Shown here one piece after another: positions 41,098 to 64,000 of a DNA stretch of 64,000 bases (the stretch's first letter is position 1; every line of letters begins with the position of its first letter). Position numbers and translations under genes: made by a program. The notes under the pieces were generated by a model. That model saw only the letters and a program-made list of their open reading frames with translations. It was not told where the DNA came from and did no database searches. The stretch spans positions 1 to 64,000 of the IMG/VR virus record IMGVR_UViG_3300034062_003747; one strand, given 5' to 3'. The DNA comes from a virus.

Positions 41098-41534
41098 TAT
41101 ATTACAAAAACTTTAAAAGAGGTTATTCCTAATTCAACCCAAACATCTATTACTCGTTGGTCATCATCATACGCACAAAATACATTTTCTTTTATTTTGG
41201 TTTCATATATTTTTCTTTTAAAAACAGGTGCCTTTAAAAAGTTATCTTCCCAACTTCTCATATACAAATTATCGTATGGTATGTTATATTTTTCTAACCA
41301 CTCTTTTGTAACCTTCCTTGTTGATTCTGGTCTACCGGTTAATACAATAACTTCAAACCCATTTTCTTTATAATTCTTTGCCAATTCAATCATTGGTAGA
41401 TTTGGTTTGTCTTTTATAAGGTTTTCGGATGAATGTACAATATCCCAGTCGAGTTTCCCATTTTCTTTTTCCGCTAATTTAAATCTATCATTAGCTATTG
41501 ACAATGTATTATCTATATCAATTATTATTTTCAT
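41097..41534 (-). CDS. HAD phosphatase, Pnk 3'-phosphatase-like
   Basis: The 145-residue protein has the HAD nucleophile motif D6-x-D8-x-T10 (IIDIDNTLS), motif II VLTGRPEST with T near 67, and a conserved YDDD region near 123. The layout is that of the 3'-phosphatase domain of T4 polynucleotide kinase, without the kinase half. It could repair 3'-phosphate ends of RNA or DNA, or it could be a sugar-phosphate phosphatase, since both neighbours look like glycan or modification enzymes. I favour the Pnk-like reading modestly. Confidence 0.72.
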   Translation of the reverse strand: MKIIIDIDNTLSIANDRFKLAEKENGKLDWDIVHSSENLIKDKPNLPMIELAKNYKENGFEVIVLTGRPESTRKVTKEWLEKYNIPYDNLYMRSWEDNFLKAPVFKRKIYETKIKENVFCAYDDDQRVIDVWVELGITSFKVFVI

Positions 41535-49899: not shown

Positions 49900-51102
49900 T
49901 TAATAAGTTTTGCTTGAAAAATCGGTTGGATATTGAGATGGTTTTATGTATCTAATCCAATAGTTAACCGCGTTCTGGTCGTTTATCCATTTTGTTTTAT
50001 CTGCCCAATCAAACCCTTCCGATGCGTAATAGGGTTTATAATCTCTGATTATTTGAGCCCTATTTGGGTGTGCAGTTACTTCATCTATTAATCCATCACC
50101 ATCCGTATCGTATCCATCAATAGAACCATCCCTATCGTAATCAATTGGTCTGACTGTATAATCGGGTTGGAGGTTTAATAACTCTTCATCTGGATTATCT
50201 ACTAATGGGTTATCAAATGGTGGTTCGTATAATCCCGCTTGTTGATTATCTTCCACCATACCACCTAAGATATCGTCTTTAGTAGAATTTTTTCCACTAT
50301 CTTTATATATTTGATAATTTTTTTCCACTAACGGGTCATTCTCACCATACATATTTTTCTTACCAATCAATCCATTAAATGCAATGATAAGGGCAACTGC
50401 AAGTGGGTCAAACACAAATACAATAATAAATATAAAAAACTTAACAACGGAGTTAAGGGGTACATTGAACGCCTCTGCTACAAAACGAAACCCACCAACT
50501 TCTTTTTCTAATTCGATATTATTATTTTTAATAACATTTATAGAATCTAACGCTGCATTATTTTTTATAGTTAATTCATCAATTCGTTTTGATATGGAAC
50601 TAATTTCTCTATCTGCAGATTTAATCATCTGAGATACTCTTGATGTAGATTTATCCTTATCAATTTGTTTAGATAAGTTACTCTCTTGAGAATTACGAAT
50701 ATTTTGTTGGTTAGTTAATTGAGTAGAGTAACGGGTTATCTCCCCATCGTTCTTAGTGATTTGAGTTTGATACACTGCAATATCTCTATCTACCTTTTGT
50801 AATCCTAAATTTTGTTGTTGGAAAGCATTAGAAAGGTATCCAAAAATACCGGCAGAGGTAATCAACATAAGAATACCTACGGCACTTGTTAGATACCACT
50901 TATTAAACCCACCAATATCATCCCACTTTTGTTTTAGATAAGTGGCTGCAACTAATTTAGCAAATTCTAATGAACCTGCCATTACCATTACTGAAAGTGA
51001 AGCACCGGCAAATAGAACACCCAATCCCGTTACTGAAAAGTACGCAGCACATCCAGCAACGATTACTGCTGATAATCCGACCAAATACTTTAACCAATTC
51101 AT
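49900..51102 (-). CDS. Multi-pass membrane protein with coiled coil
   Basis: The 400-residue protein has an N-terminal pair of membrane segments (WLKYLVGLSAVIVAGCAAYF and GVLFAGASLSVMVMAG), a third (WYLTSAVGILMLITSAGIF) near 70-90, a Gln/Asn/Ser-rich coiled coil at about 95-205 and a last segment (FFIFIIVFVFDPLAVALII) near 220-240. The tail carries D-x-D-x-D-G repeats (DYDRDGSIDGYDTDGDGLID), which are calcium-binding-like. A similar architecture is seen in T4-like cyanophages. It could sense or alter the envelope; the function is unknown. A 59-residue gene precedes it directly. Confidence 0.72.
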   Translation of the reverse strand: MNWLKYLVGLSAVIVAGCAAYFSVTGLGVLFAGASLSVMVMAGSLEFAKLVAATYLKQKWDDIGGFNKWYLTSAVGILMLITSAGIFGYLSNAFQQQNLGLQKVDRDIAVYQTQITKNDGEITRYSTQLTNQQNIRNSQESNLSKQIDKDKSTSRVSQMIKSADREISSISKRIDELTIKNNAALDSINVIKNNNIELEKEVGGFRFVAEAFNVPLNSVVKFFIFIIVFVFDPLAVALIIAFNGLIGKKNMYGENDPLVEKNYQIYKDSGKNSTKDDILGGMVEDNQQAGLYEPPFDNPLVDNPDEELLNLQPDYTVRPIDYDRDGSIDGYDTDGDGLIDEVTAHPNRAQIIRDYKPYYASEGFDWADKTKWINDQNAVNYWIRYIKPSQYPTDFSSKTY

Positions 51103-51358: not shown

Positions 51359-52198
51359 TTAAATTAATTTAGGAACTTGTTTCCAACTAGGGTATGGTAA
51401 ATTATATGTTGGGAAGTTTAATCTTAAATACTCATATACATTACATGCATAATCGTAGTTAGTTTTTGGACCAGGATGTACCCCATCTACTCCCTTATCT
51501 ATTTGTGGTGAAAAATAATTACCATCAAACCTATTATTATTATATTCTTTTGGTATCCCATACCATGTAGGTGGAAACGTGGGTATCTCAAACCAACCAT
51601 TCCATAACCAATTACATCCCTTTGACTCTAAAAAATATTTGATTAATTGATGATTTTTATACCAATTAATTAAATCCTCATTATCATTTTGCAATTCAGT
51701 TAAATATTTTTGTATTTTTTTACCATCTTCAGTTTCTTCCATATATTCTTGTGCCGATGTTGGCATATATGGTTCTACCCCATTATCCTTAGTATATATC
51801 TCTCGTCTTAGAGGTGAGGTATACATAATTAAAACTAAATCAGGTTTAAGTATTTCATAAAAGGTTATTAGTGCTCTACTTATATAATCATTACTTCCAC
51901 CAACCCATCCTAAATTAAAATCAACCCCATTAGGAATAAGTTTTGAAATTTGATGTGACCAAGTTTCATCATCATTTACTCCCACTCCTTCGGTATTTGA
52001 ACACCCTATCGACATTATCTTAAATCCTTTTTTATGAATTGAATCTCCTCTAAACCCCAATTCATTGTAAGTATATGTACATAATCCAGTACTATCACCA
52101 CCGGTAGTATTGAATGATTTATTTATTCTTTCTTTAAATGAGTTTTTATAAGATAAGGTTTCAAATCCATCTGATGTCCAATATTCTAATGGTTTCAT
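51359..52198 (-). CDS. SGNH-type hydrolase/acetyltransferase-like protein
   Basis: The 279-residue protein has SIGCSNTEGVG with candidate serine S67, GWVGGSNDYI (blocks II and III, G and N), LVLIMYTSP and, near the end, GVDGVHPGP with a D-x-x-H arrangement. These are the blocks of SGNH hydrolases, which remove or, in some families, transfer acetyl groups on glycans. The first 55 residues lie before the first block, unlike the other four copies here. It ends the accessory cluster. It is translationally coupled to the next SGNH gene by an ATGA overlap. Substrate unknown. Confidence 0.74.
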   Translation of the reverse strand: MKPLEYWTSDGFETLSYKNSFKERINKSFNTTGGDSTGLCTYTYNELGFRGDSIHKKGFKIMSIGCSNTEGVGVNDDETWSHQISKLIPNGVDFNLGWVGGSNDYISRALITFYEILKPDLVLIMYTSPLRREIYTKDNGVEPYMPTSAQEYMEETEDGKKIQKYLTELQNDNEDLINWYKNHQLIKYFLESKGCNWLWNGWFEIPTFPPTWYGIPKEYNNNRFDGNYFSPQIDKGVDGVHPGPKTNYDYACNVYEYLRLNFPTYNLPYPSWKQVPKLI

Positions 52199-52971
52199 AT
52201 TGAGTTATTTAAAACAATAAAATCATAAAGGGTATTTGCAATTAATTTATATCCATCACCATTTGGGTGTTGAGCCACTTCAATTGGATTTGGTATTTTC
52301 TTCTCCCAAATATCTTTATCTTTAAAATTTTTTATTAACCACGACTCTAAAGATTCAATTCCAAACCCCCAATAATTTGTGGTGTCAATGAGGTGAGTAG
52401 TATCGTCATTTTTATTTAAATTCTGAACCATCAAATCAAACCCATCACACATAATGTATTTTATATTATATTCATTTAACATGTGTTGTAAATAAATTAT
52501 ATAATTTTGATTTATAATATTATAATAATTTTGTGTAAATAAATTGCCTAAAAAGAATTTTTTATACTCAGTCAAAAAATTATTAAACTTTTCATCCCCA
52601 TATGTGTATGATTCTATAAATTTATTAGGTAGTTTAGATAGTTCTAATTGACCCCAACTTATCCATTCTCCTTTTGGTAGAAAGGGAACATAATCTCTTA
52701 AAGATGAACTCCACATGATAACGACAAAATCATCTTTTTTAATTTTATTATTTCTTAAATCATTTATAACCTCATTAAAAATAATATTATTTGCTTTACC
52801 GCTCCATCCATTGTTTACAGCCTCTAACCCCATCTTATTTGCAAGGTGAGTAACCCAACTATTTTTATTTCTAAATAATTGTAATTGATTTCTATCCTTA
52901 TAAGATTGTTCGGTGGGCCAATCAATTCCTACCCCCTCTGTCCAACTATCTCCGTATGCGTATAATTTCAT
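52195..52971 (-). CDS. SGNH-type hydrolase-like protein
   Basis: The 258-residue protein starts MKLYAYGDSWTEGVG, with S9 as nucleophile candidate. NGWSGKANN gives blocks II and III, and AQHPNGDGYKLIANTL supplies the C-terminal H. The overlap with the upstream gene is ATGA. The start sequence MKLY is shared with three other products in this cluster that have different folds, which reflects a repeated junction rather than common descent. Probably a glycan esterase or O-acetyltransferase; that is inference from the family. Confidence 0.76.
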   Translation of the reverse strand: MKLYAYGDSWTEGVGIDWPTEQSYKDRNQLQLFRNKNSWVTHLANKMGLEAVNNGWSGKANNIIFNEVINDLRNNKIKKDDFVVIMWSSSLRDYVPFLPKGEWISWGQLELSKLPNKFIESYTYGDEKFNNFLTEYKKFFLGNLFTQNYYNIINQNYIIYLQHMLNEYNIKYIMCDGFDLMVQNLNKNDDTTHLIDTTNYWGFGIESLESWLIKNFKDKDIWEKKIPNPIEVAQHPNGDGYKLIANTLYDFIVLNNSI

Positions 52972-53648
52972 ATTATATTTTTTAGTTTACCGTTTAAATT
53001 ATCTAAGGGCGAATATAACACATGAGGTTTCCAACATTTAATATAATTATAAAAATTTTTAAAATTATCTAATGGTGGATATAATACAGCCGGATTCCAG
53101 TTATCAATTTGATTTATAAAATAATTTTCTGCAGAATATCTATTTTCTAATGTTCCCCATCCATTTTTAACATATTGCGGTATTCTATTAATTGATTTAA
53201 TGGTAGTCCACCAAAAATTACCACCATAAAAATTATTAGGACACCAATGTTTAATAATCTCAGGATATTTGATTATATAATTATCAATTCTCATCAACAC
53301 TCCAGATGTGTCAAACCCCATATTTAACAACTTAATATGTTCTTTATAATTATCTATCAATGATGCCTCCATATATTTTCTCCACTCAATTTCATATAAC
53401 TTAGTTGGTTTCGATGCTCCCTTAGTGTGAATATATAAAATATAATCGGTATTATCAAACTCCTTTACTTCTTCTAACATTTTTAAAAAAGTGTGACATT
53501 CGTTTTCGTTAATATTGACAATATTGGGGTGATATGTGAATTCATCGGTAATCTGATTAAACACTCTTTCCTTTTGTTCCTCAGCTATTTTTAAACCAAT
53601 GTTATCTGATGTATTACCTGACCATATGTGATGATATATCCGTATCAT
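52968..53648 (-). CDS. Putative glycosyltransferase-like protein
   Basis: The 226-residue protein has YILYIHTKGAS with WRKYMEA downstream, then a D-x-x-G element (GFDTSGVLM) and YGGNFWWTT. The HTKG...GNFWW pattern is known from bacterial glycan proteins annotated as glycosyltransferase-like, for example in rhamnan or LPS clusters. The last 40 residues contain a tandem duplication of W-x-P-x-VLY-x-PLDN. It is coupled to the downstream SGNH gene by ATGA. The reaction cannot be assigned. Confidence 0.6.
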   Translation of the reverse strand: MIRIYHHIWSGNTSDNIGLKIAEEQKERVFNQITDEFTYHPNIVNINENECHTFLKMLEEVKEFDNTDYILYIHTKGASKPTKLYEIEWRKYMEASLIDNYKEHIKLLNMGFDTSGVLMRIDNYIIKYPEIIKHWCPNNFYGGNFWWTTIKSINRIPQYVKNGWGTLENRYSAENYFINQIDNWNPAVLYPPLDNFKNFYNYIKCWKPHVLYSPLDNLNGKLKNII

Positions 53649-53706
53649 ATTAATACTTTTTTATTTGTTCTTCTTGTAATTTCTTTTGTTTCATATATTA
53701 CGATAG

Positions 53707-54330
53707 TTATTTCCAAATAGAAAATTGGTTTTGAATCTTATACCAAAATAATTCATCAGTTTTTAATAAAGTATTAATTTCAATCCATTGTTGGGGATAT
53801 GTTTTGATTAAATACTGTATTAGTTCAGATTTGGATAACCATATTGGATAGTTTGAAAAATTATACTTTACTTCATCAAAAATAGGTAATTTTTCAATAC
53901 CCATTTCTTTGGTTAAGAAATCGTTTAAATCATCCAACATTACAATAGTAGGTGGTGTAGGTAAAGAGACTCCAAACAAATATAGATATTTAAACAATTG
54001 ATGATGCCAATGTAATTGGGAGTTAATATCTATAATAAATTTATTTAACAGTTTCTTTTCTTCTAAAAATTTATTCTCCTTACTCAAACCCCCCAATAAA
54101 GATTGACTTTTTCTATTCCAACACCACTCTATAAACTCCGTATGTAATGCGGATATTAGCAAATCCATTGGAGTTCTTAAAACTACCCATTTAATATTTG
54201 AAGTTAGTGGAATTTTTATTATATCAAACAAATCAATATATTCTCTATCAATGTTATACACCTCATATAAAAAACGTGAACCACATTTTGGAGGAGTTAG
54301 AATTTGCTTGTTGAAGACGTATAATTTCAT
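53707..54330 (-). CDS. Sulfotransferase-like protein
   Basis: The 207-residue protein has PPKCGSRFL (5'-phosphosulfate loop, residues 13-21) and WVVLRTPMDLLISALHTEF near 48-66, matching the arginine and serine that hold the 3'-phosphate of PAPS. The match is shorter than in the 14592-15164 gene but has both key parts. It probably sulfates a carbohydrate. A 14-codon frame lies in the 58-base gap after it. The start is within a 18-base sequence repeated at the start of the next gene upstream. Confidence 0.7.
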   Translation of the reverse strand: MKLYVFNKQILTPPKCGSRFLYEVYNIDREYIDLFDIIKIPLTSNIKWVVLRTPMDLLISALHTEFIEWCWNRKSQSLLGGLSKENKFLEEKKLLNKFIIDINSQLHWHHQLFKYLYLFGVSLPTPPTIVMLDDLNDFLTKEMGIEKLPIFDEVKYNFSNYPIWLSKSELIQYLIKTYPQQWIEINTLLKTDELFWYKIQNQFSIWK

Positions 54331-54349
54331 TTTACATCATATTAATTTG
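54318..54349 (-). repeat. Gene-junction repeat, copy A
   Basis: The plus-strand core TATAATTTCATTTTACAT spans the stop-start junction before the sulfotransferase gene; it is identical at 55064-55081, before the SGNH gene. It encodes the shared MKLY start. Confidence 0.8.
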
Positions 54350-55074
54350 TTGGTTTTTTCATTCAAAATTCTATTACGAATTTCTTTTGCGATAAATTTA
54401 TGTCCGGCATCATTTTCGTGTGCATATAAATCTTTAGATAATCCATTTTTTATAATAAATTCAAAAAGACCTGTAAATAATAAATCATCAATATTACTAA
54501 ATTTAATAAACTTACTTAAATCAATTTTTTTAAATATATTTAATTTTTTAACAGATTTATCTAATTTAATATAGTTAAAAAAAAGATAATCAATATTATT
54601 TTTAATAAAATATTCCTGTAATATAAACATATAGTGTAAGGTTTCCTCACTTGCCCACGGTTCAGATTTTACTTTGTTATTATTATACATAAATGTATTA
54701 AGTTCACTATCCTTTATATATAAATAATCTTTTGAATTATTTAAATAATATTCTTCACCCGTTTCAGTTAGGGTTCTTCTTCTATTCGGCCAAGTCCATT
54801 CTATAATAACTAAATCAGGTTTTTGATTTTGGGAAATTAAATGTTCTATTTCTTCTAAAGTGGTGTGTAATATCCTATCATTTCCTCCACCATAAAAAGC
54901 ACTATTAAATAATATATTATCTTCATTATTTGTATTTTTATAAGAAATTATGTTTTGTATTAAAATTTCTTTAAAATTATCCACAATTGAATACATGAGT
55001 ATTTTAGGCCAATTTAAACTGAATTCAGCCCAATCACCCGCAGAATATGAACATCCGTTTACATATAATTTCAT
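54337..55074 (-). CDS. SGNH-type hydrolase-like protein
   Basis: The 245-residue protein begins MKLYVNGCSYSAGDW with S9 in the GCS block, has FYGGGNDRIL for the Gly and Asn blocks and ends with AHENDAGHKFIA for the final block. The arrangement matches small SGNH proteins of phage and bacterial glycan clusters. Its stop and the next start share the repeated junction. Likely an esterase or O-acetyltransferase for a glycan. Confidence 0.76.
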   Translation of the reverse strand: MKLYVNGCSYSAGDWAEFSLNWPKILMYSIVDNFKEILIQNIISYKNTNNEDNILFNSAFYGGGNDRILHTTLEEIEHLISQNQKPDLVIIEWTWPNRRRTLTETGEEYYLNNSKDYLYIKDSELNTFMYNNNKVKSEPWASEETLHYMFILQEYFIKNNIDYLFFNYIKLDKSVKKLNIFKKIDLSKFIKFSNIDDLLFTGLFEFIIKNGLSKDLYAHENDAGHKFIAKEIRNRILNEKTNKLI

Positions 55075-55097
55075 TTTACATTATATTTTGTTTAATT
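55061..55097 (-). repeat. Gene-junction repeat, copy B
   Basis: The second copy of the junction core TATAATTTCATTTTACAT, with similar A/T-rich flanks, at the start of the SGNH gene. Confidence 0.8.
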
Positions 55098-56332
55098 GTG
55101 TTATTTTTTTTCAAATCATTATTTAAAATCAAATCCAATAATGAATTTTCATTGTTCATTCTAAACATAAATTTAGTATGTACCACATCAGACCATTCTT
55201 TACATAATATATAATTTTCATCAAAGTTTTCCATAAATTCTTTTACGAATTTTGAAAATAATTTACCATCAACTTTATAATTTTTAGATTCTTTATAAAA
55301 CGGATGTGGTGGAACATCAAATATTTTTTCAACCATTTCAATTGGGTATTCGTGTGTTGATATAAATGGTATCCCAGCTAATAATAATCCAATTGTTTTC
55401 TCCGAAAGGTACTGTGATGTAAATTTTTGTGTACTCCATGACCAACTCTCACATAGTATTTGCATTTTGGCTTTTGTTAAAACTCTAAAGAATATATCAC
55501 CACATCCTTTTAAATTTTCAATATAACTTATATCATCAAAATCAGTATTACCAAGTATTGAATTATTTTTAATATCATTTGAAACCAATGACCCATTTTT
55601 TTTATAATATTTATTATGATTTAACGCATCACATGTTTTTAAATAAATTTTATTGTTATTTAAATTTTTTAATTCATTTAAAATACTAACTCTGTTTGAT
55701 TTATGATTTCTTACACTATACATTAAATCATAATCAAAATTTAATTTATCATAGACCTGTTTAAATTCATACCACCATCTAATATTTAAATTTTTGTTCC
55801 ATTGAAAAATAGAATTTGTAAGTGCAAAGTGAACGTTTTGATATTTGGATTTTACATGATTATTTAGAAAAAAATTATCAGTTATAATATAATGTTGATT
55901 TAATTGTTCTAATAGTGATTCTATTTCATTTGCTTTTTCATCAAACGCAATTTCTTCATATTTTTGAAATATTTTTTCCGTTCTGAAATAAGTGATTAAC
56001 CACTTTTGGTTCTTTGGACAATCTTTTAATAGGTTTATAAATATTTTTAATATTTGTTGATTTTCCCTATCCATATAACTTCTATCTGGTAAGATTGGGC
56101 CTATTTTTGAATCTGTACTTGAATTAAAATATGCACTGAAATAATCTAATATATGATATCCATCCTCTTCAAAACTAATTTCTTCTTTAAAGATAAATTC
56201 AATATCAGTATTTTTGTATTTACAAAACACACTACCTGTATTGTTTTCAATAAAATATTTTCTATCGGTTGTATTATTTCCTAAAGTATATAATAACGAT
56301 TTATCAAACTGATGATGTATATATATTTTCAT
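55076..56332 (-). CDS. Putative GT-B-like glycosyltransferase
   Basis: The 418-residue protein has no clear catalytic motif, but its C-terminal third, with ILCESWSWS, YLSEKTIGLLLAGIPFIS and PHPFYKESKNYK, has the layout of the donor half of GT-B/GT10-like transferases. It shares long stretches with the gene at the window edge (63009-64000), for example the KEFMENFDENY and LCKEWSD segments, so these two are paralogues. It probably transfers a sugar to a phage or host surface glycan. Confidence 0.6.
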   Translation of the reverse strand: MKIYIHHQFDKSLLYTLGNNTTDRKYFIENNTGSVFCKYKNTDIEFIFKEEISFEEDGYHILDYFSAYFNSSTDSKIGPILPDRSYMDRENQQILKIFINLLKDCPKNQKWLITYFRTEKIFQKYEEIAFDEKANEIESLLEQLNQHYIITDNFFLNNHVKSKYQNVHFALTNSIFQWNKNLNIRWWYEFKQVYDKLNFDYDLMYSVRNHKSNRVSILNELKNLNNNKIYLKTCDALNHNKYYKKNGSLVSNDIKNNSILGNTDFDDISYIENLKGCGDIFFRVLTKAKMQILCESWSWSTQKFTSQYLSEKTIGLLLAGIPFISTHEYPIEMVEKIFDVPPHPFYKESKNYKVDGKLFSKFVKEFMENFDENYILCKEWSDVVHTKFMFRMNNENSLLDLILNNDLKKNNTIKQNIM

Positions 56333-56341
56333 AACTTTAGT

Positions 56342-56812
56342 TTATAAAAGTGTTATGCATTTTGCACCAAATGAATATACAAGTTTAATCGCCGCTATAT
56401 TCCATTCAAATATTTCCATTCTAATTTCTCTAAATTTTTTAAAAATAATTTTAGTTGTATTGCTATAAAACCAGTTCGAAGATTCATTTGGTCTTTCTAT
56501 TACATTTGTAATGTATAAATTATAAGTAAAGCAACTGTCATTATTTATTTTTTTAAACCACCTATAACCAACCGGTTGTTCTTTATAATAAAATATAAAC
56601 ACATAATGACCATCATTAATTCTAGTATACACGTCAGTTATATTAAACATTCCGTCCCATTTATATTCTATATTAAAATAGTCAATCAATGTTTTCATTG
56701 AGTTTATATTTTTTTCTAACGTATCTAAATCCTCCACCAAAACATAACTTAAATCTTCATGTTCGGTTGTATATTCTATAAAAGTTTCTTTTGTTAGTTT
56801 AAAGGTTTTCAT
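56342..56812 (-). CDS. GNAT-like acetyltransferase
   Basis: The 156-residue protein has a strand-helix pattern with FIFYYKEQPVGYRWFKK and the end NIAAIKLVYSFGAKC, which is the C-terminal GNAT motif (N-x-x-A...GA). The acetyl-CoA loop is diverged. The gene overlaps the FkbM-type gene by four bases. The substrate is unknown; within this cluster an amino-sugar or lipid acyl acceptor is possible. Confidence 0.55.
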   Translation of the reverse strand: MKTFKLTKETFIEYTTEHEDLSYVLVEDLDTLEKNINSMKTLIDYFNIEYKWDGMFNITDVYTRINDGHYVFIFYYKEQPVGYRWFKKINNDSCFTYNLYITNVIERPNESSNWFYSNTTKIIFKKFREIRMEIFEWNIAAIKLVYSFGAKCITLL

Positions 56813-57411
56813 AATATTGTTTGGTATTTTTTATTAACAAATAAAATATTTAAATCTTTCCAATTTATTTTTTTATTAATCTCCTCTTTATTAATTACTA
56901 TAAAGTTATTTTTTTCTAAATATTCAATAAGATAGGTGTGCCTATTTTCAGTATTATATAAATTTTCATTTCTACTCCCTTCAACTTGTCCTCTTTTTAT
57001 TAAAGATATTTTTTCATTTAGGGATTTAAGAATATCCAAATCACTACCTTGAGCATCACAATGAAAGTAATCAATTGAATCTATATTATTTTCATCTATA
57101 AATGTATCTAATCTTATAACTTCTACATCCACTTCCATTTCATATTCGGTGATTTTATTTTCAATACTATAATTGGATAGTTCATTTATTGAAGATGACA
57201 TTTTATTTTTTCCAATATAAAATTTTGAAATTCCATTTATCATTCCCACCGCTTTATTTATTATTTTAATATTTTTTTTATTAAAAAATCTTAATTTTAA
57301 TTTTTCCGCGTGATAGTTGTCCGGTTCAAAACAATAAACAAACGAATCATCTTTGAGATATTTTTCAGTATCTTCACCATCAAATCCACCTATTTCTATA
57401 ATTGTTTTCAT
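56809..57411 (-). CDS. FkbM-family methyltransferase
   Basis: The 200-residue protein has TIIEIGGFDGEDT (SAM-binding loop), FEPDNYH, and then IRLDTFIDENNIDSIDYFHC with AQGSDLDIL, the FkbM family signature. FkbM-type enzymes O-methylate sugars or small molecules. The overlap with the downstream GNAT-like gene is four bases. It probably caps a sugar residue in the same pathway. The loop GGFDGED is a normal SAM site with acidic residue. Confidence 0.82.
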   Translation of the reverse strand: MKTIIEIGGFDGEDTEKYLKDDSFVYCFEPDNYHAEKLKLRFFNKKNIKIINKAVGMINGISKFYIGKNKMSSSINELSNYSIENKITEYEMEVDVEVIRLDTFIDENNIDSIDYFHCDAQGSDLDILKSLNEKISLIKRGQVEGSRNENLYNTENRHTYLIEYLEKNNFIVINKEEINKKINWKDLNILFVNKKYQTIL

Positions 57412-57424
57412 TTTAAATTAGTTT
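57409..57424 (-). repeat. Gene-junction repeat with AAACTAATTTAAAATG
   Basis: Near copy of the junction at 63006-63021, with one base inserted, at the end of the methyltransferase gene. Confidence 0.6.
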
Positions 57425-58006
57425 AGTAATGACATTATTTGAAGGATAAATAAAAATACAACCTCTTTTTTTAACTCCATTCATATATGATTCTTTACTA
57501 ACATATTTTTCGTAACTATTTTTTCCATAAATCAACTCAACGTTAGATTTAATATGTTTCCAATTCAATTCTATGTTATTTCCGTTTTCATCAATATAAC
57601 GTTCATAATCCCAATTCTCGTGGCCACAATCAAAATCATGTATAATAATAATTGGTTTATAATTAAAATTTGAAATTATTTTCAATTCATCATTTATCGG
57701 CCAAGTACCCCAATGAGCATCTAAAAATATAAAAAATTTATCATGCCCTATTTCTATAAAAAATTTCTCTAAACATTCGGGTGAATTTCCTTTTAATATT
57801 TTAATATTCGGATTATTATTAAATCTATAATATAAAGGGAAATATTTACTATCTAATTCACAGCTATAAACTTTATCAAAAATGTGTTGTAAAATATCGA
57901 CAGATTCTCCTTTGTTTGTACCCGTTTCTATTATAATGTTATAATCAAATTTTTGTTTTAATTTCATTATATCAATTATTAACATGCTATCTTGCTTAAA
58001 CCCCAT
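57413..58006 (-). CDS. Class I SAM-dependent methyltransferase-like protein
   Basis: The 197-residue protein has NIIIETGTNKGESVDIL (SAM loop), VYSCELDSKYF and FFIFLDAHWGTWP, the order of class I methyltransferases of the Methyltransf_24 type. Its end is basic (RGCIFIYPSNNVITKLI). It is one base from the FkbM gene and likely also methylates an intermediate of the glycan pathway. The start ATG is the first in the frame; the methyl acceptor is unknown. Confidence 0.7.
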   Translation of the reverse strand: MGFKQDSMLIIDIMKLKQKFDYNIIIETGTNKGESVDILQHIFDKVYSCELDSKYFPLYYRFNNNPNIKILKGNSPECLEKFFIEIGHDKFFIFLDAHWGTWPINDELKIISNFNYKPIIIIHDFDCGHENWDYERYIDENGNNIELNWKHIKSNVELIYGKNSYEKYVSKESYMNGVKKRGCIFIYPSNNVITKLI

Positions 58007-58042
58007 AGTAATATATTTTTTTATTTTCTATTAAGATGTTTA

Positions 58043-58798
58043 TCATAATAATCTTAAAGGTTTTTTTTTATACTTTGTTAGATTATAATTTATTGTTTCA
58101 TACTCAACATCTTCAATTGTAATTTGAATTTTTGATTTACAATTTTGATTTAGATTATCGGTTTTTTTTAAAATAACATTTGCTAACATGGGTTGGACTC
58201 CGATTGAATAATGAACATCTTCATTGTTATGAAAATTATTTTTAATTAACCAATTAGCAAACCCATCTTCAAATTTAATATTTGTTCCATAATTTAATAG
58301 TGTATCCGTATAAGATGACTCCTCAATGAAAATATAAAATATAGATATTTTTTTAGATATTAAATATTCAAATAACGGATTTATTAATTTAAATAATCTA
58401 AAATTATAATCTAATGAATTTTTTAAATAATAATCTACTAAAGATAAAACTCCTTCGTTTTCTTCTAACACTCTACTATATTTTTTTTTGTTAATAATTT
58501 CATTATCATATAGTTCATTAAATAATACATTAGTAGATTCAATTGTATTAGTTACTTTATTTAAAAAACAACCTCTGGAAAGAAAAGAAAAATTAATGAG
58601 TATTATATCCCCCTCCCTATAATTTTGTAATTGTTCTAATATTTTTCTAAAAATAATTTCGTTTGATGCTCCTCCAACTGTGAATGCGGGAATATATTTA
58701 TACTCTATACTATCCGCAATATGATGACAAAAATGTTTATTATCACCATAATAATTTACTGTTCCATAACTATCACCAAAATGAAATAATTTTTTCAT
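58043..58798 (-). CDS. SGNH-type hydrolase-like protein
   Basis: The 251-residue protein starts MKKLFHFGDSYGTVNYYG with S10, then TVGGASNEII for the Gly and Asn blocks and DVHYSIGVQPMLANVI for a D-x-H catalytic block. This is one of five SGNH copies in the cluster, with an unusual long, Lys-rich C-terminal strand part (KIQITIEDVEYETINYN). It likely acts on acyl groups of a glycan. It is separated by one base from the radical SAM gene upstream. Confidence 0.72.
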   Translation of the reverse strand: MKKLFHFGDSYGTVNYYGDNKHFCHHIADSIEYKYIPAFTVGGASNEIIFRKILEQLQNYREGDIILINFSFLSRGCFLNKVTNTIESTNVLFNELYDNEIINKKKYSRVLEENEGVLSLVDYYLKNSLDYNFRLFKLINPLFEYLISKKISIFYIFIEESSYTDTLLNYGTNIKFEDGFANWLIKNNFHNNEDVHYSIGVQPMLANVILKKTDNLNQNCKSKIQITIEDVEYETINYNLTKYKKKPLRLL

Positions 58799-58799
58799 A

Positions 58800-59963
58800 T
58801 TAAAAATTTGTGAATATTTGTATATTTTGATAATCCGTTTTCAATTTTTTTAATTTATTAACTTCGTCTAAAAACATTACATGCTCAGGATGTTCTGAGT
58901 TTCTTACATTTTTTATTTTAAATTGTCCTTCTGTAAATGTTCCCCAGTTATTAATATGGATAAAGTTTACTTCCGTTTTCATACCATTTAGTTTTTGTAA
59001 GTAATCTGCCAATTCCACAAACCCAATCATTTCCGTATAATTATTATTTTGAACTACGAATGTTAATCTTACAAAATCTAAATTTGGTATTTTAGTGAAT
59101 ATAAATTGTAAGTTTTTATAAAGAATATCCCAATTACCACCTAATCTTATTTGTTCATAAGTTTCCTTTGTACATGCGTCTATACTAATTTCTGCCGTTA
59201 TTCTTGGTATTGAATGTAGATTTTCTAATCTATCCCATATTTTTTCTGTCCATCCGTTTCCGTTTGTGTGTAAATGTAAATTTTTTGTATTTGGGTATTT
59301 TTCCATTGTAATGGATTTTAAAAGATTACGCCAAAACTCACTCCCAAATCCATCGCCACTTGCGGTAATGTATAATTCGTGAGCATCATTCATTGCAAAT
59401 TCTAAAATTTTATCCTGTATGGTTTCTGATTTTTCTCTTTCTTTGCCCGTAGTATTAATAAAATCGGTTCTACATGATGGGCATTTAAGGTTACAACTTC
59501 TATCATGTGAAAAAATAACACACTCGGGCCCCCATGGTAAATCTGATATTTTTTCTTCAATAATTTTTTTAAACTTCTCTTCTCCGTCTGGGTTAATGGT
59601 TTTATTGTTCCAAAGTTTATGAAATGTTTTTTCGTCAAAAATTGGGAAATACCCATTATCATAAACACTTTCATCTATTTCTTCATTATTCCATTTTTGT
59701 AAAAATCCACATTCTTTTTCATCACAATATTTCATACTACCATCGTGCATAGAATCTCTCAATTTGATTGCAACCTCACTATTCCAAATATTATTCCAAT
59801 TATCTGTCAATGCATTACCAGCAGGTCCACACTTAACCCAAGCGTTTACCCATCGTTTTTCTTCCTCACTCCAAGCACCGGAACAACATTGCCAAACTAA
59901 ACCATTTGACTGAAATTCGGCATTTCTGAATGGTGCTACACAAAATCCTTTTTTATTACTCAT
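58800..59963 (-). CDS. Radical SAM/SPASM-type protein
   Basis: The 387-residue protein has the cluster motif C157-x3-C161-x2-C164 (SCNLKCPSC) and cysteine pairs in the first 90 residues (C8, C26, C27, C80, C85) that suggest auxiliary clusters. The motif LYITASGDGFGSEFW and IDACTKETYEQIR follow, as in SPASM-type enzymes. These carry out C-H functionalisation on peptides or sugars. It is coupled to the halogenase by an ATGA overlap. The pairing is unusual in phages, and the substrate is unknown. Confidence 0.85.
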   Translation of the reverse strand: MSNKKGFCVAPFRNAEFQSNGLVWQCCSGAWSEEEKRWVNAWVKCGPAGNALTDNWNNIWNSEVAIKLRDSMHDGSMKYCDEKECGFLQKWNNEEIDESVYDNGYFPIFDEKTFHKLWNNKTINPDGEEKFKKIIEEKISDLPWGPECVIFSHDRSCNLKCPSCRTDFINTTGKEREKSETIQDKILEFAMNDAHELYITASGDGFGSEFWRNLLKSITMEKYPNTKNLHLHTNGNGWTEKIWDRLENLHSIPRITAEISIDACTKETYEQIRLGGNWDILYKNLQFIFTKIPNLDFVRLTFVVQNNNYTEMIGFVELADYLQKLNGMKTEVNFIHINNWGTFTEGQFKIKNVRNSEHPEHVMFLDEVNKLKKLKTDYQNIQIFTNF

Positions 59964-61186
59964 ATTAACGTTGTATTTTTTTTAGGAAAATTTCCATTAT
60001 TGATTAATATGTAACTTTCAATTGGAAAATTTAATCTTGTTGATTTAGGTACATTTAACACTTTTTTTAATTGGGAATTATTTTTAATACATACTAAATT
60101 TTTATTTGATATTATCTTTTCTAATTCATTTGGTAATTTTTTTTCTTTATATGTTTTCCAAAAAGTAGTATTGTTTTTTGAACAATTATAATGATGTCTA
60201 ATTATAATCATATTTTGTCTTTGTATATTATTTATACTTTCATTAAATTCATTTTCACTTAAAGTATTATTTAAATATTTTTTAAAAGTTTTTAATTGTA
60301 CCACAATTGTCATAATTGAGGTTGCTTCCAATGGTTCTAAAAAACCAGAACTTAACCCTACAATTAAACAATTATTTATTAATGTTTTTTCATAAGTTCC
60401 TGGTTCAAAAGTAATTGTTTTATTAATTTGTATATCATTTCCAAATTTGTTTATTATTTCCGTTTTTGCAATATCTTCTGAAATAAGTTTTTTGTCAAAA
60501 ATATATCCACACCCCCATCTATTTTGTAATGGTATTTGCCAAACCCACCCATAATCCATTGCAATTGCATTTGTTCTTGTATTAACCGTAACATCATTCC
60601 TTTTTAAGAAAAAAGGTATTGCTGTATTAACTATTAATTCATCAGCATAAGTTTTCCACTTTAATTTAAATAGTTTTGGGGTTAACCTATGAAATCCACT
60701 ACAATCAAATACAAAATCCGTATCATAATTGATATTATTTTCTAATTTAATACTATTAATATCACCTTTTTCATTTTGTTCAATATTTTTTATTTTCCCA
60801 TCTATGTGTTCTACTCCTCTGATTATCGCAATTTCTTTTAAATAATCTGCTAATAATCTTGCATCAAAATGATATGCATATACACTTTTATCTTCTTCCA
60901 TTAAATCACCAAATCCATGAACATATGAATAATCTATATCTGACCAGTTGTGGAAATGAATACCTATTTTTTTTGTTCCATTTACTTTTTTTAATAAATC
61001 GCTTTCATCAATTTCTAATTCCGATAGGAAATTTACCAAATTTGGAGTACTCCCTTCACCGGCACCTAGTATACCAATTTCCGAACTTTCTATTAGTTTT
61101 ACGTTTGAATTTTTGTAATATTTTTTTGCAAAAATTGCAGTTAACCATCCGGCTGTTCCTCCACCAATTATTATAATATTGTTCAT
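59960..61186 (-). CDS. Flavin-dependent tryptophan halogenase-like protein
   Basis: The 408-residue protein has the FAD motif GGGTAGW at 8-14, GAGEGSTPNL near 41, a TKKIGIHFHNW element with lysine at 72 or 73 (the halide-activating Lys of PrnA and RebH lies in the matching place) and the halogenase signature YGWVWQIPL near 211-218. The family oxidises chloride or bromide to a HOCl or HOBr-type intermediate that halogenates an aromatic residue or small molecule. It is coupled by ATGA to a 2OG oxygenase and to a radical SAM gene, so the three form a modification operon. A monooxygenase without halogenation is the main alternative. Confidence 0.86.
   Translation of the reverse strand: MNNIIIIGGGTAGWLTAIFAKKYYKNSNVKLIESSEIGILGAGEGSTPNLVNFLSELEIDESDLLKKVNGTKKIGIHFHNWSDIDYSYVHGFGDLMEEDKSVYAYHFDARLLADYLKEIAIIRGVEHIDGKIKNIEQNEKGDINSIKLENNINYDTDFVFDCSGFHRLTPKLFKLKWKTYADELIVNTAIPFFLKRNDVTVNTRTNAIAMDYGWVWQIPLQNRWGCGYIFDKKLISEDIAKTEIINKFGNDIQINKTITFEPGTYEKTLINNCLIVGLSSGFLEPLEATSIMTIVVQLKTFKKYLNNTLSENEFNESINNIQRQNMIIIRHHYNCSKNNTTFWKTYKEKKLPNELEKIISNKNLVCIKNNSQLKKVLNVPKSTRLNFPIESYILINNGNFPKKNTTLI
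59961..59985 (-). repeat. Gene-junction repeat with ACAACGTTAATATGA
   Basis: On the minus strand ACAACGTTAATATGA encodes the C-terminal TTLI and stop of the halogenase and contains the start of the radical SAM gene. A copy with one change (ACAACGTTGATATGA) lies at 61184-61198, at the oxygenase-halogenase junction. Confidence 0.78.
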
Positions 61187-61665
61187 ATCAACGTTGTTTT
61201 TTTAATTAAATCCTCATAGTTAACAAATAACAAAGCACTTTTTCTAATTCCTTTTGTTATTTTACTTATTTCATGTAATCTATCTGATTTAAAAAAATAA
61301 GGAATTCCTGGTGTTTTGTCAACAATAGAATCGGGATTATATAAAATATATTCCCCTCCATCGTAATCATCATTTATATGAAATCCCACAACATACGCCC
61401 TATTTTTATAACCCCTTTCAACTGAATCAATATGTTTACCAAAATAATCACCCACATTATATTTATGGAGTGTTAAATTATAATCGTAAGATTTTAGTTT
61501 TTCACCACTTTCAATTTCAAACCAATTTAATAGTTTAGTGGTTATATTCATTTCATTATTTGTAAGAACCGCAAATTCGTAACTTCGGTTTTTTAATTTT
61601 CTAAAATCCGTATTATTCCAAAAAGATTTTAAAAAATCTAATTCAATATCACTATATAACTTCAT
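61183..61665 (-). CDS. 2OG-Fe(II) oxygenase, P4H/PKHD-like
   Basis: The 160-residue protein has the metal triad H78-x-D80 (FGKHIDS) and H131 (RLHEIS) with R141 (GIRKS), the full 2OG oxygenase signature, plus the FHINDDYDGGEYILYNP strand. The enzyme hydroxylates a peptide or a small molecule. It has the shared MKLY start and TTLI end. The gene is followed by the halogenase through an ATGA overlap. The same signature occurs in the gene at 1167-1736 next to the polyproline protein. Confidence 0.87.
   Translation of the reverse strand: MKLYSDIELDFLKSFWNNTDFRKLKNRSYEFAVLTNNEMNITTKLLNWFEIESGEKLKSYDYNLTLHKYNVGDYFGKHIDSVERGYKNRAYVVGFHINDDYDGGEYILYNPDSIVDKTPGIPYFFKSDRLHEISKITKGIRKSALLFVNYEDLIKKTTLI
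61184..61198 (-). repeat. Gene-junction repeat with ACAACGTTGATATGA
   Basis: Second copy of the 59961 junction, one base changed (A to G), coding the TTLI end of the oxygenase. Confidence 0.78.
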
Positions 61666-61667
61666 TT

Positions 61668-62276
61668 TTAATATATATTTTTTTTAGAACCATAATCCTT
61701 AGTATAATCTAATATTGTAAATCCTCCTGCATAAACGATTCGTTCTATATCCGAACTACGATTTAATTCAGGTTTGTGTAATAAATTTGCTGGAAATAAA
61801 ATTAAATCTCCTACTTGTGGTAAATACGATACTTCTATACCTTCATTTGTTCTAAATAATATTTTTCCTTCTTGCTCGTTTAAATTATCAGGCATTTGTG
61901 CATAATAAACAAATGACCAATCTATATCCGTTTTTAAAGTATCGCTAAAAGTATGTGTATGAAATCTTGTCCAGTTGTTATTTTTATTAGAGACATATAT
62001 CCATTCGGTACTAAAATATAAATTTATATCATTTGTATTATAATTTAAAAATTTAAAAATTTTTTTATATATTTTAGTATTTAAATTTTTAATTGCTTTT
62101 GTTTTTAAAATTATATATGATTGAATACCATGTTCTTTAACAGATTCGACTGATGTTTTTTTATTTACTTTCATATTAAATTTTAAATCTTTTATTAATT
62201 CAAAATTATTAATAGTTGGTAAATTTGTAATATAAAAAGAAACCACATCAGTTATTTTTATTTCTTTAAATTTCAT
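61668..62276 (-). CDS. 2OG-Fe(II) oxygenase-like (PF13759-like)
   Basis: The 202-residue protein has WTRFHTHTFSD with H106-x-H108 in place of H-x-D, LLHKPELN with H167 and R179 in DIERIVYAG. The VYYAQMP and PQVGDLILFPANLL segments match the 2OG-FeII_Oxy_5 group, where the H-x-H pattern is used and the role is poorly known. The first 80 residues are mixed alpha/beta with no recognised domain. It lies two bases from the next 2OG oxygenase gene. Confidence 0.72.
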   Translation of the reverse strand: MKFKEIKITDVVSFYITNLPTINNFELIKDLKFNMKVNKKTSVESVKEHGIQSYIILKTKAIKNLNTKIYKKIFKFLNYNTNDINLYFSTEWIYVSNKNNNWTRFHTHTFSDTLKTDIDWSFVYYAQMPDNLNEQEGKILFRTNEGIEVSYLPQVGDLILFPANLLHKPELNRSSDIERIVYAGGFTILDYTKDYGSKKNIY

Positions 62277-63008
62277 TTATATTAAATTTATTTTATGTTT
62301 TTTTTCTTGTTTTAATAAAAACTCATTTAATTCTTCTGCTATTTTTGCATGGCCAGAAATAGAAAGGTGCGATGATTCTGTATTTAAAAATTTATATTTT
62401 GTTGACCACTTTAAAATAGAATATTCGTTTTCCAAATTAAAAAAATTTCTTTTTTTTAATTCTTCTAACTGATTATCATTGTTTATTTCTGGCCAATACA
62501 TTAATAAAATTTTATTATTTTTTTTCTCCGCATGTGAAACCAACGTATCAATTTGATATAATAAATAATTAAAAGTTTCTTTTTCATTATAATGATGTTC
62601 AATATAAGATGAATACATTTTTAACATTTCATCAATCGTATCATTTTTGTTTATATTTTTATCGTACATTTCCGAAATTAATGGATTTTTAAAATCAACT
62701 TCAAAATTTACAAAATTTGATTTTTCATTATATGTAGGTATAACATTAAATGCGTTGGGTTGGTAATTTACCCATTTTTGAAAATATGAACTATATAAAC
62801 CAAGTCTATGTAACCAAGTAATTTGTAATATTATAAACGAATTTTCTATATTGTGTTTTGTTATATAATCATATATTTTATAAATAATATGATTATTACT
62901 TAATCCCGGATGTGATAAATTACTAACATCGTATCCCATCTCTTTTAATATAGCACCATATGACTTAGTACCACATGAATATGAACAACCGGAAATTAAA
63001 ACTTTCAT
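62277..63008 (-). CDS. SGNH-type hydrolase-like protein
   Basis: The 243-residue protein begins MKVLISGCSYSCGTK with S9, has LSHPGLSNNHII for the second and third blocks, and ends with ESSHLSISGHAKIAEEL for the last block. It is the furthest upstream of the five SGNH copies. The product ends in INLI, one of seven genes in the cluster with an LI terminus coded at the junction. It probably removes or adds acyl groups on a glycan. Confidence 0.74.
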   Translation of the reverse strand: MKVLISGCSYSCGTKSYGAILKEMGYDVSNLSHPGLSNNHIIYKIYDYITKHNIENSFIILQITWLHRLGLYSSYFQKWVNYQPNAFNVIPTYNEKSNFVNFEVDFKNPLISEMYDKNINKNDTIDEMLKMYSSYIEHHYNEKETFNYLLYQIDTLVSHAEKKNNKILLMYWPEINNDNQLEELKKRNFFNLENEYSILKWSTKYKFLNTESSHLSISGHAKIAEELNEFLLKQEKKHKINLI

Positions 63009-63021
63009 TTAAATTAGTTTT
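63006..63021 (-). repeat. Gene-junction repeat with AAACTAATTTAAATG
   Basis: A short A/T-rich junction, AAACTAATTTAAATG on the minus strand, that encodes the KLI end of the upstream protein and precedes the next ATG. A near copy (AAACTAATTTAAAATG) lies at 57409-57424. Confidence 0.6.
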
Positions 63022-64000
63022 GATGTGGTGGTGGTGGAATATTTAAAGTCGTTAATCATCAAATCTAATAAAGAGTTTTCATTATAAAATTTATCCATAA
63101 AAGCTATATGACATATATCTGACCATTCTTTACATAAAGTATAATTTTCATCAAAGTTTTCCATAAATTCTTTTACGAATTCTGCAATCTTAACCGCATC
63201 TCCTTTTATTTTTTTACTTTCATTATAAAATGGGTGAGGTGGTATATCTAAAATTTTATTTAAAACTTCTAATGGGTAACTATGTGTTGATATAAATGGT
63301 ATACCTGATAATACAAACCCTATGGTTTTTTCTGAAAGGTAATGTGATGCAAAATCTGAATCTGCCCACGACCAACTTTCATCTAATATTTGCATTTTTG
63401 AAATATTTAATACTCTATAAAATAAATCTAAACCAAGTCTATTTTTATGTATTAAATGTAAATTATCAAAATCGTTATCACCTTCCATAGAATTTAGGTA
63501 TATATCCGTTACTTTATTTTCATGTGTTAAATTTAGTTCACTATTTTTACGAGCATCTGACCTTTGTAAAAAAATCCTATTATTATTAAGTTTTTTTAAT
63601 TCATTTAATAAAAGTATTCTATTGTATTTATATGACCTAATTGAAAAACACAAATCATAATCAAAATTTAATTTATCATATATTTTTTTAAATTCATAAT
63701 ACCATCTTATTTCTGCATGAAAATTCCAATACCACATTGAATTTGAAAAAGTATAATAAAAATTAGAGTATTTTAATCTTATTTCATCTTTTATAAAAAC
63801 TTCTTCTAATACTATTTTATGATTTTTTAATTTTAAAAAAGAATTTTCTATATCGTATAATAAATCCATATTTTTCTTATAAAATACATTTTCATATTTA
63901 AATAAAGTCTTTTCACCATTGAAAAACATTATTATCCAATTCGTTTTACCTTCTAATAAATTACATAAATTATCAACGGGATTATTGACTATATTATCTA
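63009..64000 (-). CDS. Putative GT-B-like glycosyltransferase, 5' end beyond window
   Basis: The frame is open to the window edge. An internal ATG at 63929 would give 306 residues, but the open frame continues upstream without a stop and the extra segment (NLLEGKTNWIIMFFNGEK) matches the middle of the paralogue at 55076-56332 (NLLKDCPKNQKWLITYFRTE). So the true start lies beyond 64000 and the gene is partial here. The C-terminal YLSEKTIGFVLSGIPFIS and PHPFYNESKK segments show the same GT-B-like layout. It likely transfers a sugar in the accessory pathway. Confidence 0.62.
   Translation of the reverse strand, partial: DNIVNNPVDNLCNLLEGKTNWIIMFFNGEKTLFKYENVFYKKNMDLLYDIENSFLKLKNHKIVLEEVFIKDEIRLKYSNFYYTFSNSMWYWNFHAEIRWYYEFKKIYDKLNFDYDLCFSIRSYKYNRILLLNELKKLNNNRIFLQRSDARKNSELNLTHENKVTDIYLNSMEGDNDFDNLHLIHKNRLGLDLFYRVLNISKMQILDESWSWADSDFASHYLSEKTIGFVLSGIPFISTHSYPLEVLNKILDIPPHPFYNESKKIKGDAVKIAEFVKEFMENFDENYTLCKEWSDICHIAFMDKFYNENSLLDLMINDFKYSTTTTSKLI

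Follow-up and report, generated by a model that had tools for sequence, protein, structure and literature searches.

In a large uncultured phage we identified a hypervariable island in which exchangeable modifying enzymes follow a gene for a predicted self-cleaving precursor, and in which most of the encoded proteins share a short C-terminal tag, K-[TKSN]-L-I. The best explanation, which we hold at about even confidence, is a phage-specific RiPP-like locus that would make and tailor a ribosomal peptide or small protein, with a self-cleaving precursor and tag-recruited enzymes. The window analyzed comprises the first 64,000 nucleotides of IMG/VR record IMGVR_UViG_3300034062_003747, a contig that ends at 77825. 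Positions 51359-64000 hold 16 consecutive ORFs, all on the minus strand, where the preliminary description had counted about 15, and the ATGA couplings it reported are found as overlaps at 52195, 52968, 56809, 59960 and 61183. Past 64000 the 63009 gene is completed and two further genes follow. Its full extent, which the preliminary description had sought beyond the window, is now seen to end at 65458, giving 18 genes on a single strand. The genes of the island and its borders are as follows.

49900..51102, minus strand: conserved phage gene at the island border, 91-95% identical in close relatives
51359..52198, minus strand: SGNHa, SGNH-family protein, last island gene, ends KLI; S/G/N/H invariant in alignment A5; 76 viral relatives
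52195..52971, minus strand: SGNHb, SGNH/GDSL hydrolase-like protein without the tag (Pfam Lipase_GDSL 2.5e-5; alignment A5)
52968..53648, minus strand: protein called glycosyltransferase-like in the preliminary description, ends NII; family without a Pfam or PDB match
53707..54330, minus strand: possible sulfotransferase without the tag, PPKCGSRFL read from sequence; no Pfam match
54337..55074, minus strand: SGNH-family protein, ends KLI (DUF6071 6.5e-6; alignment A5)
55076..56332, minus strand: GTa, 418 aa, paralogue of the 63009 gene, ends NIM; glycosyltransferase role unconfirmed, no PDB match
56342..56812, minus strand: weakly GNAT-like protein, ends TLL; nothing above the Pfam cut-off
56809..57411, minus strand: FkbM-family methyltransferase, ends TIL (Pfam 1.2e-10; TIGR01444 above cut-off)
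57413..58006, minus strand: candidate class I methyltransferase, ends KLI (RrnaAD is a weak Pfam match, E = 0.044)
58043..58798, minus strand: SGNH-family protein, ends RLL (iterative profile; alignment A5)
58800..59963, minus strand: radical SAM protein with N-terminal SPASM/twitch, without the tag (Pfam Radical_SAM 1.1e-5, SPASM 4e-5; N_Twi_rSAM 5.7e-20, below cut-off)
59960..61186, minus strand: flavin-dependent (Trp-type) halogenase, ends TLI (Pfam 1.5e-91; PDB alignments; GGGTAGW, catalytic Lys, WVWQIP)
61183..61665, minus strand: 2OG-Fe(II) oxygenase, ends TLI (Pfam 2.9e-6)
61668..62276, minus strand: 2OG-Fe(II) oxygenase without the tag (Pfam 2OG-FeII_Oxy_5 2.9e-5; phrog_81 6.8e-14)
62277..63008, minus strand: SGNH-family protein, ends NLI (iterative profile; alignment A5)
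63009..64000 in the window (full gene 63009-64271 of the contig), minus strand: second GTa-like protein, 420 aa, ends KLI
64272-64886 (contig coordinates), minus strand: sulfotransferase-like protein, beyond the window
64886-65458 (contig coordinates), minus strand: sulfotransferase-like protein, beyond the window
about 65480-65623 (contig coordinates), minus strand: microprotein ORF, beyond the window
65630-67456 (contig coordinates), minus strand: head gene, ATP-grasp-like with two Hint domains, beyond the window
67554-67934 (contig coordinates), minus strand: hsp20, beyond the window

The cluster is a hypervariable phage island and not a host contig misjoined to the phage, because it is bordered by phage genes at both ends and the same site is empty or differently filled in relatives. 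In most relatives hsp20 directly adjoins the 49900 gene, while in close relatives (91-95% identical) different islands occupy the site. The GC content of the island is 21-27%, compared with roughly 28-34% across most of the contig.

Most of the enzyme assignments made previously from the letters alone hold. A single iterative profile reaches all five SGNH proteins, and the Ser, Gly, Asn and His residues of superfamily blocks I, II, III and V are invariant in alignment A5 (G7/S9, G58, N61 and H235). The halogenase is secure; its relatives are VirX1, PrnA and RebH, and PDB alignments place all of the tryptophan halogenase motifs (GxGxxG, the catalytic Lys and WxWxIP). Used as a query it found no relatives in a scan of viral contigs; tblastn recovered relatives in cultured phages. 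The radical SAM protein and both 2OG oxygenases are likewise supported by Pfam, with a SPASM domain on the former. For the two proposed methyltransferases, the FkbM-family assignment stands while the second remains weak, as does the GNAT. The sulfotransferase-like calls are weak too, their best Pfam match being Stf0 at E = 0.0018 in a member of the family. The three proteins described as glycosyltransferase-like could not be confirmed. PDB and Pfam profile searches for their two families were empty or at chance level, and AlphaFold gave no usable model of GTa (pLDDT 45). All NCBIfam matches of the radical SAM protein and halogenase fall below cut-off, and no curated RiPP maturase family is matched above it.

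The head gene, which lies upstream of the enzymes, belongs to a family with 226 loci in viral contigs. One match was found in 84,980 bacterial and archaeal genomes, and none in cultured phages. The C-terminal half of the protein has a BIL/intein fold (TM 0.71 to 6y75), and the Hint domain ends in an invariant His-Asn (HN) in 72/72 full-length relatives, so that both the fold and the C-terminal His-Asn required of a Hint/BIL domain are present. The first Hint lacks the N-terminal catalytic Cys/Ser (alignment A1), and the second Hint of the studied phage, a canonical BIL domain, retains it. The invariant HN and the Hint fold suggest a release-competent design.

A hypervariable tail of 25-68 residues follows the HN in 61 of the 72 full-length relatives. 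Cysteine makes up 18.3% of the tail compared with 0.6% of the body, and identity is 53% in the tail where the body has 84%. The number of cysteines is even in all 61 tails, a count that overstates evolutionary events as related contigs are not fully independent, and the cysteines form 42 spacing patterns. All tails contain at least one lysine, and 48 of them exactly one. In those 61 relatives the protein resembles a RiPP precursor with leader and variable C-terminal core beside modifying enzymes; in the studied phage a second Hint domain replaces the cysteine-rich tail. Elsewhere in its contig, a search for a Cys-rich peptide found three chance-like ORFs, none at an annotated position. Five tandem-Hint relatives without a Cys-rich tail still have 2OG and SGNH genes and mostly the radical SAM gene. 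The tail therefore cannot be the sole substrate, since these relatives and the studied phage keep the enzymes.

A microprotein ORF follows the head gene in 72/72 relatives, compared with 194/600 controls; unlike the variable tails, it is strongly conserved. We considered it as the hypervariable core and rejected it on that conservation. Within 8 kb downstream of 68 Hint loci we found 2OG genes at 59, SGNH at 55, sulfotransferase-like at 42 and radical SAM at 35, whereas the corresponding numbers at 46 Hint-less control loci are 14, 4, 2 and 0. The downstream enzymes lie on the strand of the head gene in 413 of 415 cases at the Hint loci. With radical SAM-SPASM, halogenase, 2OG and methyltransferase genes in the island and these linkage counts, the kinds of peptide-modifying enzyme expected of a RiPP cluster are encoded next to the putative precursor.

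The tag is common to unrelated downstream enzymes. Among 391 island enzymes 75.7% end in it, as do 68.5% of the remaining 162 ORFs in islands, compared with 7.1% of 1147 control ORFs; these counts overstate independent events for the reason given for cysteine parity. In the studied island 14/18 proteins carry it, compared with 6/68 elsewhere (Fisher p = 1.9e-8), and the same enzyme families away from Hint have it in 7% of 29 cases. The codons for the penultimate leucine follow general usage, which argues for a signal at the protein level. A DNA junction motif behind the LI ends was rejected on codon usage, distance and the same-family controls.

From these sequence patterns we infer cleavage, modification and docking as follows. 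In the head protein an ATP-grasp-like domain is joined to Hint, and in most relatives Hint, His-Asn and a Cys-rich mini-protein stand in succession. Asn cyclization by Hint would free the hypervariable tail, and exchangeable radical SAM, 2OG, halogenase, SGNH and sulfo- and methyltransferase-like enzymes would modify the tail or a partner protein. The tag may gather these enzymes by binding a putative common partner, with the microprotein as the constant component of the locus. The product might be a mini-protein, either secreted or displayed on the virion, that acts on hosts or on competing phages; an arms-race product is suggested because tails and enzymes are exchanged rapidly. Only tentatively do we extend this to a phage-only assembly line, in which a portable tag recruits unrelated enzymes to a hub of ATP-grasp/Hint precursor and microprotein, self-cleavage frees hypervariable, tailored, disulfide-paired mini-proteins, and swaps of tagged genes create products.

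It is possible, though we doubt it, that the enzymes instead modify tail-fibre or surface proteins, the Hint protein being a fibre-like protein or adhesin with a modified variable tip and the island serving to diversify receptor binding at the post-translational level. In at least five relatives the protein ends, after the Cys-rich part, in a segment that reads as an S74-like intramolecular chaperone; however, most relatives lack it, and the Hint fold with its invariant HN suggests release over retention. Two halogenases of cyanophage Syn10 lie in a gene run directly behind tail-fibre-like genes, but the cultured-phage clusters examined have neither tag nor Hint. A poly-proline tail protein of the studied contig (488-2878) has a 2OG oxygenase gene and a GT-like gene as neighbours, whereas the island itself is bordered by hsp20 and the 49900 gene and not by fibre genes.

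A second alternative concerns the tag only, whose residues could be a degradation signal or a by-product of translation starts and no docking tag; we regard this as improbable. Hydrophobic C-termini after lysines resemble ClpX C-motifs such as that of MuA, and codons for the last isoleucine lean to ATA (0.68 vs 0.50). However, the leucine codons are normal and the tag frequency is nearly independent of the distance to the next gene, at 0.62-0.69 even for gaps of more than 30 nt to the following start. A by-product is therefore unlikely, and a degron remains a candidate.

The preliminary description had proposed tailoring of a glycan or a peptide. Accessory tailoring and the peptide option are supported, while a glycan or capsule is not favoured. 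Glycans are frequent targets of FkbM, SGNH and sulfotransferase families, all represented in the island if the sulfotransferase-like genes are counted. Modification of host LPS or capsule, blocking superinfection or altering the host surface, would have a precedent in the large LPS-type gene clusters that cyanomyoviruses carry near phoH or hli03 (PMC3037559). We consider it distinctly improbable here because genes for sugar-nucleotide synthesis, flippase, polymerase and ligase are absent from the island, no glycosyltransferase could be confirmed, and what stays constant across relatives (Hint precursor, microprotein and enzyme tag) indicates that a peptide or protein is tailored. We know of no glycan pathway linked to a Hint precursor. 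A polymorphic-toxin-like effector, in which the Hint protein frees a small Cys-rich toxin with the microprotein as antitoxin, is highly improbable: the second Hint matches PT-HINT best in Pfam (above cut-off) and a variable domain and small gene follow Hint, but a conserved microprotein beside variable tails is the opposite of matched immunity proteins, the effector would be merely 25-68 residues, and the tailoring operon would be left unexplained.

Among known systems, the locus that we propose as RiPP-like resembles rSAM/SPASM, proteusin-halogenase and ATP-grasp graspetide clusters in having a precursor beside genes for rSAM-SPASM, oxygenase, halogenase, methyltransferase and sulfotransferase-like enzymes, a hypervariable core-like C-terminus and an ATP-grasp-like domain. 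It differs in its occurrence in phages, in its leader, a folded and potentially self-cleaving ATP-grasp and Hint protein of about 450 residues, in its Cys-rich mini-protein core and shared enzyme tag, and in that no exporter or protease is seen in the island; the studied phage also lacks the tail. PT-HINT toxins and BIL domains share the Hint fold directly ahead of a variable C-terminal module. However, the phage locus has no known trafficking domain or variable immunity partner, and its cargo is tiny, Cys-paired and accompanied by a tailoring operon. The LPS islands and halogenase/2OG clusters of T4-like cyanophages and of pelagiphages (P-SSM2, Syn10 with VirX1, HTVC008M) are similar in that these large marine myoviruses also group 2OG oxygenase genes and tryptophan-type halogenase genes at variable sites, but those of Syn10 and HTVC008M have no adjoining Hint precursor or LI tag, and the glycosyltransferase and sugar-nucleotide genes of the cyanophage LPS/glycan type were not found in the studied island. 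Cultured phages gave no match to two head proteins (L003 and L119), SGNHa or the radical SAM protein. No open-licence paper combining Hint, RiPP and phage was found, which is weak evidence of novelty. The shared ending of most of these otherwise unrelated enzymes suggests an assembly line, not described before, with which the phage would modify a small protein.

Among phage genes, those for halogenases, 2OG oxygenases and radical SAM proteins have long been listed as orphan auxiliary metabolic genes without known substrates. Their position beside a putative self-cleaving precursor, with a common tag, provides a concrete and testable substrate hypothesis. Members of the pathway could be sought in metagenomes by the tag alone, regardless of their fold, and the tails represent a new reservoir of cysteine-rich mini-proteins. 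If the assembly-line reading is true, the phage would evolve chemistry through cassette exchange.

The full virus record comprises 77,825 bases, of which the window covers bases 1-64000. The contig is assigned to a large myovirus on the basis of matching baseplate wedge proteins; among named phages, Microcystis phage Mel-JY01 and Flavobacterium phage immuto carry the nearest relatives of the baseplate wedge protein (38–43%). In a related locus in another viral contig (L002, 6059-8506), two lipoprotein-like proteins carry ACSKDD and ASCSKED after a signal-like stretch, a pair typical of Bacteroidota that may hint at the host. The run of adjacent minus-strand genes noted in the preliminary description holds 16 ORFs from 51359 to the window end, and in the record beyond it the block does continue past 64000, reaching 65458 and adding two sulfotransferase-like genes. 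The GC content of this island is 21–27%.

51359-65458, minus strand: island of 18 putative tailoring genes
Between the sulfotransferase-like genes and the head gene: small ORF (microprotein)
65630-67456: head gene, 608 residues, with ATP-grasp-like and Hint domains
Beyond the head gene: hsp20, then an HD-domain-like gene and further genes, PhoH among them

The enzyme classes first proposed for the island are partly upheld. The halogenase, the radical SAM protein (with SPASM) and both 2OG-Fe(II) oxygenases are clear assignments, and the five SGNH proteins are mutually homologous, each retaining its S, G, N and H. One methyltransferase is clearly of the FkbM type, whereas the second has a weak match, as does the GNAT; the sulfotransferase-like proteins are weakly supported, and the glycosyltransferase labels were not confirmed.

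The island occupies a hypervariable site. Candidate stretches in viral contigs include 210 relatives of the gene at 49900-51102, and in most relatives spanning both genes hsp20 directly adjoins the homologue of this gene, leaving the site empty. Two related loci, L003 (95%) and L005 (91%), have almost the same flanks but different contents: the radical SAM protein shares 38% identity with that described here, an SGNH protein shares 54–55% with that at 51359-52198 (SGNHa), the 2OG genes are others, and the head genes are only 23–25% identical. Whole islands are replaced between close relatives, and these different fillings between near-identical flanks, with the empty sites, exclude the misjoined host contig near 51359 that had been raised as an alternative.

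Viral contigs were scanned with the head gene, the radical SAM protein and SGNHa, and neighbourhoods were then listed. A separate search of viral contigs, using 20 aligned head proteins as the query, identified 226 head-protein relatives. The single match in bacterial and archaeal genomes lies in a metagenome-assembled genome, on a 3.7-kb contig that may itself be viral. The head proteins of L003 and another related locus, L119, gave no relatives among 50,697 phage records, and that of this phage matches cultured phages through its Hint part only. Many phages share a common layout in which the head gene is followed by same-strand tailoring genes, often with SGNHa last. Tailoring genes are linked to the ATP-grasp/Hint head gene: of 68 head genes, 59 have a 2OG gene within the 8 kb downstream, 55 an SGNH gene, 42 a sulfotransferase-like gene and 35 a radical SAM gene, compared with 14, 4, 2 and 0, respectively, of 46 control loci lacking a head gene. 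All but two of the linked genes (413/415) are on the same strand as the head gene. A Nol-like carbamoyltransferase is encoded at 36912-38627, and 15 related loci have a member of its family no more than 5 kb upstream of the head gene. Another phage group (L165-L192) has SGNHa homologues with no nearby Hint gene; these mostly end FEI and adjoin a protein of 851–854 residues.

In the alignment, E-x-N-T, R, D, K and R are invariant in the N-terminal half of the head protein, where the order in which the conserved E-x-N and K motifs occur suggests that the ATP-grasp is permuted. In an AlphaFold model (pLDDT 80.6) this half weakly matches YjfC and glutathione-synthetase-like ATP-grasp proteins, and the C-terminal half matches inteins and BIL domains (TM 0.71 to 6y75). 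His-Asn closes the Hint part in 72/72 full-length head proteins, and the first Hint domain lacks an N-terminal Cys. C-terminal cleavage without this residue is established in engineered inteins, so the first Hint domain could plausibly release the tail described below.

In 61 relatives a tail of 25–68 residues follows the HN. Cysteine makes up 18.3% of the tail compared with 0.6% of the rest of the protein, and its number is even in 61/61 tails (eight in 34, six in 25, ten and twelve in one each), with 42 different spacings. No tail is without lysine and 48/61 have exactly one, where a Poisson expectation would put ~35% of tails at one and ~27% at none; the cysteine and lysine counts include related sequences and are not independent events. 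Divergence is faster in the tail than in the body (53% versus 84% identity). These features point to a folded, rapidly evolving mini-protein with paired cysteines. In this phage and several relatives (e.g. L094, L135, L127), one or two extra Hint domains after the first HN replace the cysteine-rich tail, and several of these proteins end HNK. Behind the cysteine-rich part, at least five relatives extend into a long C-terminal segment whose sequence reads as S74 fibre chaperone-like. Because of these variants the product of this particular phage is uncertain, and a virion role is possible.

An ORF of 22–60 codons lies within 150 nt behind the head gene in 72/72 cases with downstream sequence, compared with 194/600 control genes. 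These microproteins are conserved within groups, one reading MANIITNTEINTLNTTLTTIGNLIVxANS and others ending ...IKVKHLGE or ...AKHS; that of this contig is METPAKYKSTPATAVHNRTIVLTNTTQKANVQTILAKFVQFLKAKHS.

Unrelated island enzymes share the ending K-[T/K/S/N]-[L/I]-[I/L]. Scored as two hydrophobic last residues, [LIM][LIM], this tag is present in 75.7% of the classified island enzymes (n = 391) and 68.5% of the unclassified island ORFs (n = 162), compared with 7.1% of control ORFs (n = 1147). Within this contig 14/18 island genes carry it, versus 6/68 genes elsewhere (Fisher p 1.9e-8). One of these six is a 378-residue protein (12026-13162) ending NTKLL, whose family also has members in other Hint islands. 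Tag frequency is maximal in the first four genes behind the head gene and reaches background by about the twelfth, and it depends little on distance to the next start codon (0.62–0.78). The penultimate Leu codons show normal usage, as expected under selection on the protein. Away from a head gene the tag occurs in 7% of 29 members of the same enzyme families, and the cultured phages Syn10 and HTVC008M lack it in their halogenase/2OG clusters. In the lineage L104-L112, which has tandem Hint domains (L104 3612-5873, L105, L106, L109, L111), island enzymes end T-F-V or T-F-K in place of TLI, so that this lineage has its own version of the tag. Of all the signs that the island acts as a single system, the tag is the strongest. 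Its most likely role is docking; a degron is possible.

Elsewhere in the contig, very long poly-proline runs mark a 374-residue protein (1754-2878), behind which come a 2OG oxygenase that is prolyl-hydroxylase-like (1167-1736) and a glycosyltransferase-like gene (488-1210). The group adjoins a tail protein of 1761 residues that includes a collagen-like stretch, and could possibly serve hydroxyproline modification of a tail protein. A second radical SAM-like protein (41531-42730; ACSHCNMF), 96–98% conserved in close relatives, adjoins a HAD-like small protein, and 43899-45074 reads as a fusion of ABC-type ATPase and GNAT-like domains.

To our knowledge, the natural substrate of the viral halogenase VirX1 has not been established. 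VirX1 (PDB 6qgm) is cited as biochemically characterised in PMC10452541, and clustered LPS genes, tryptophan halogenases and 2OG genes are already known from large cyanomyoviruses (PMC3037559; PMC10452541). The present locus would work like a RiPP cluster. However, its precursor, cargo and tag fit none of the curated families tested, and it is therefore set apart rather than counted as a member. In the proposed scheme the Hint domain would release the tail, the tag would recruit the island enzymes, and these would modify the released peptide, or a partner or virion protein. The product may be used against hosts or rivals.
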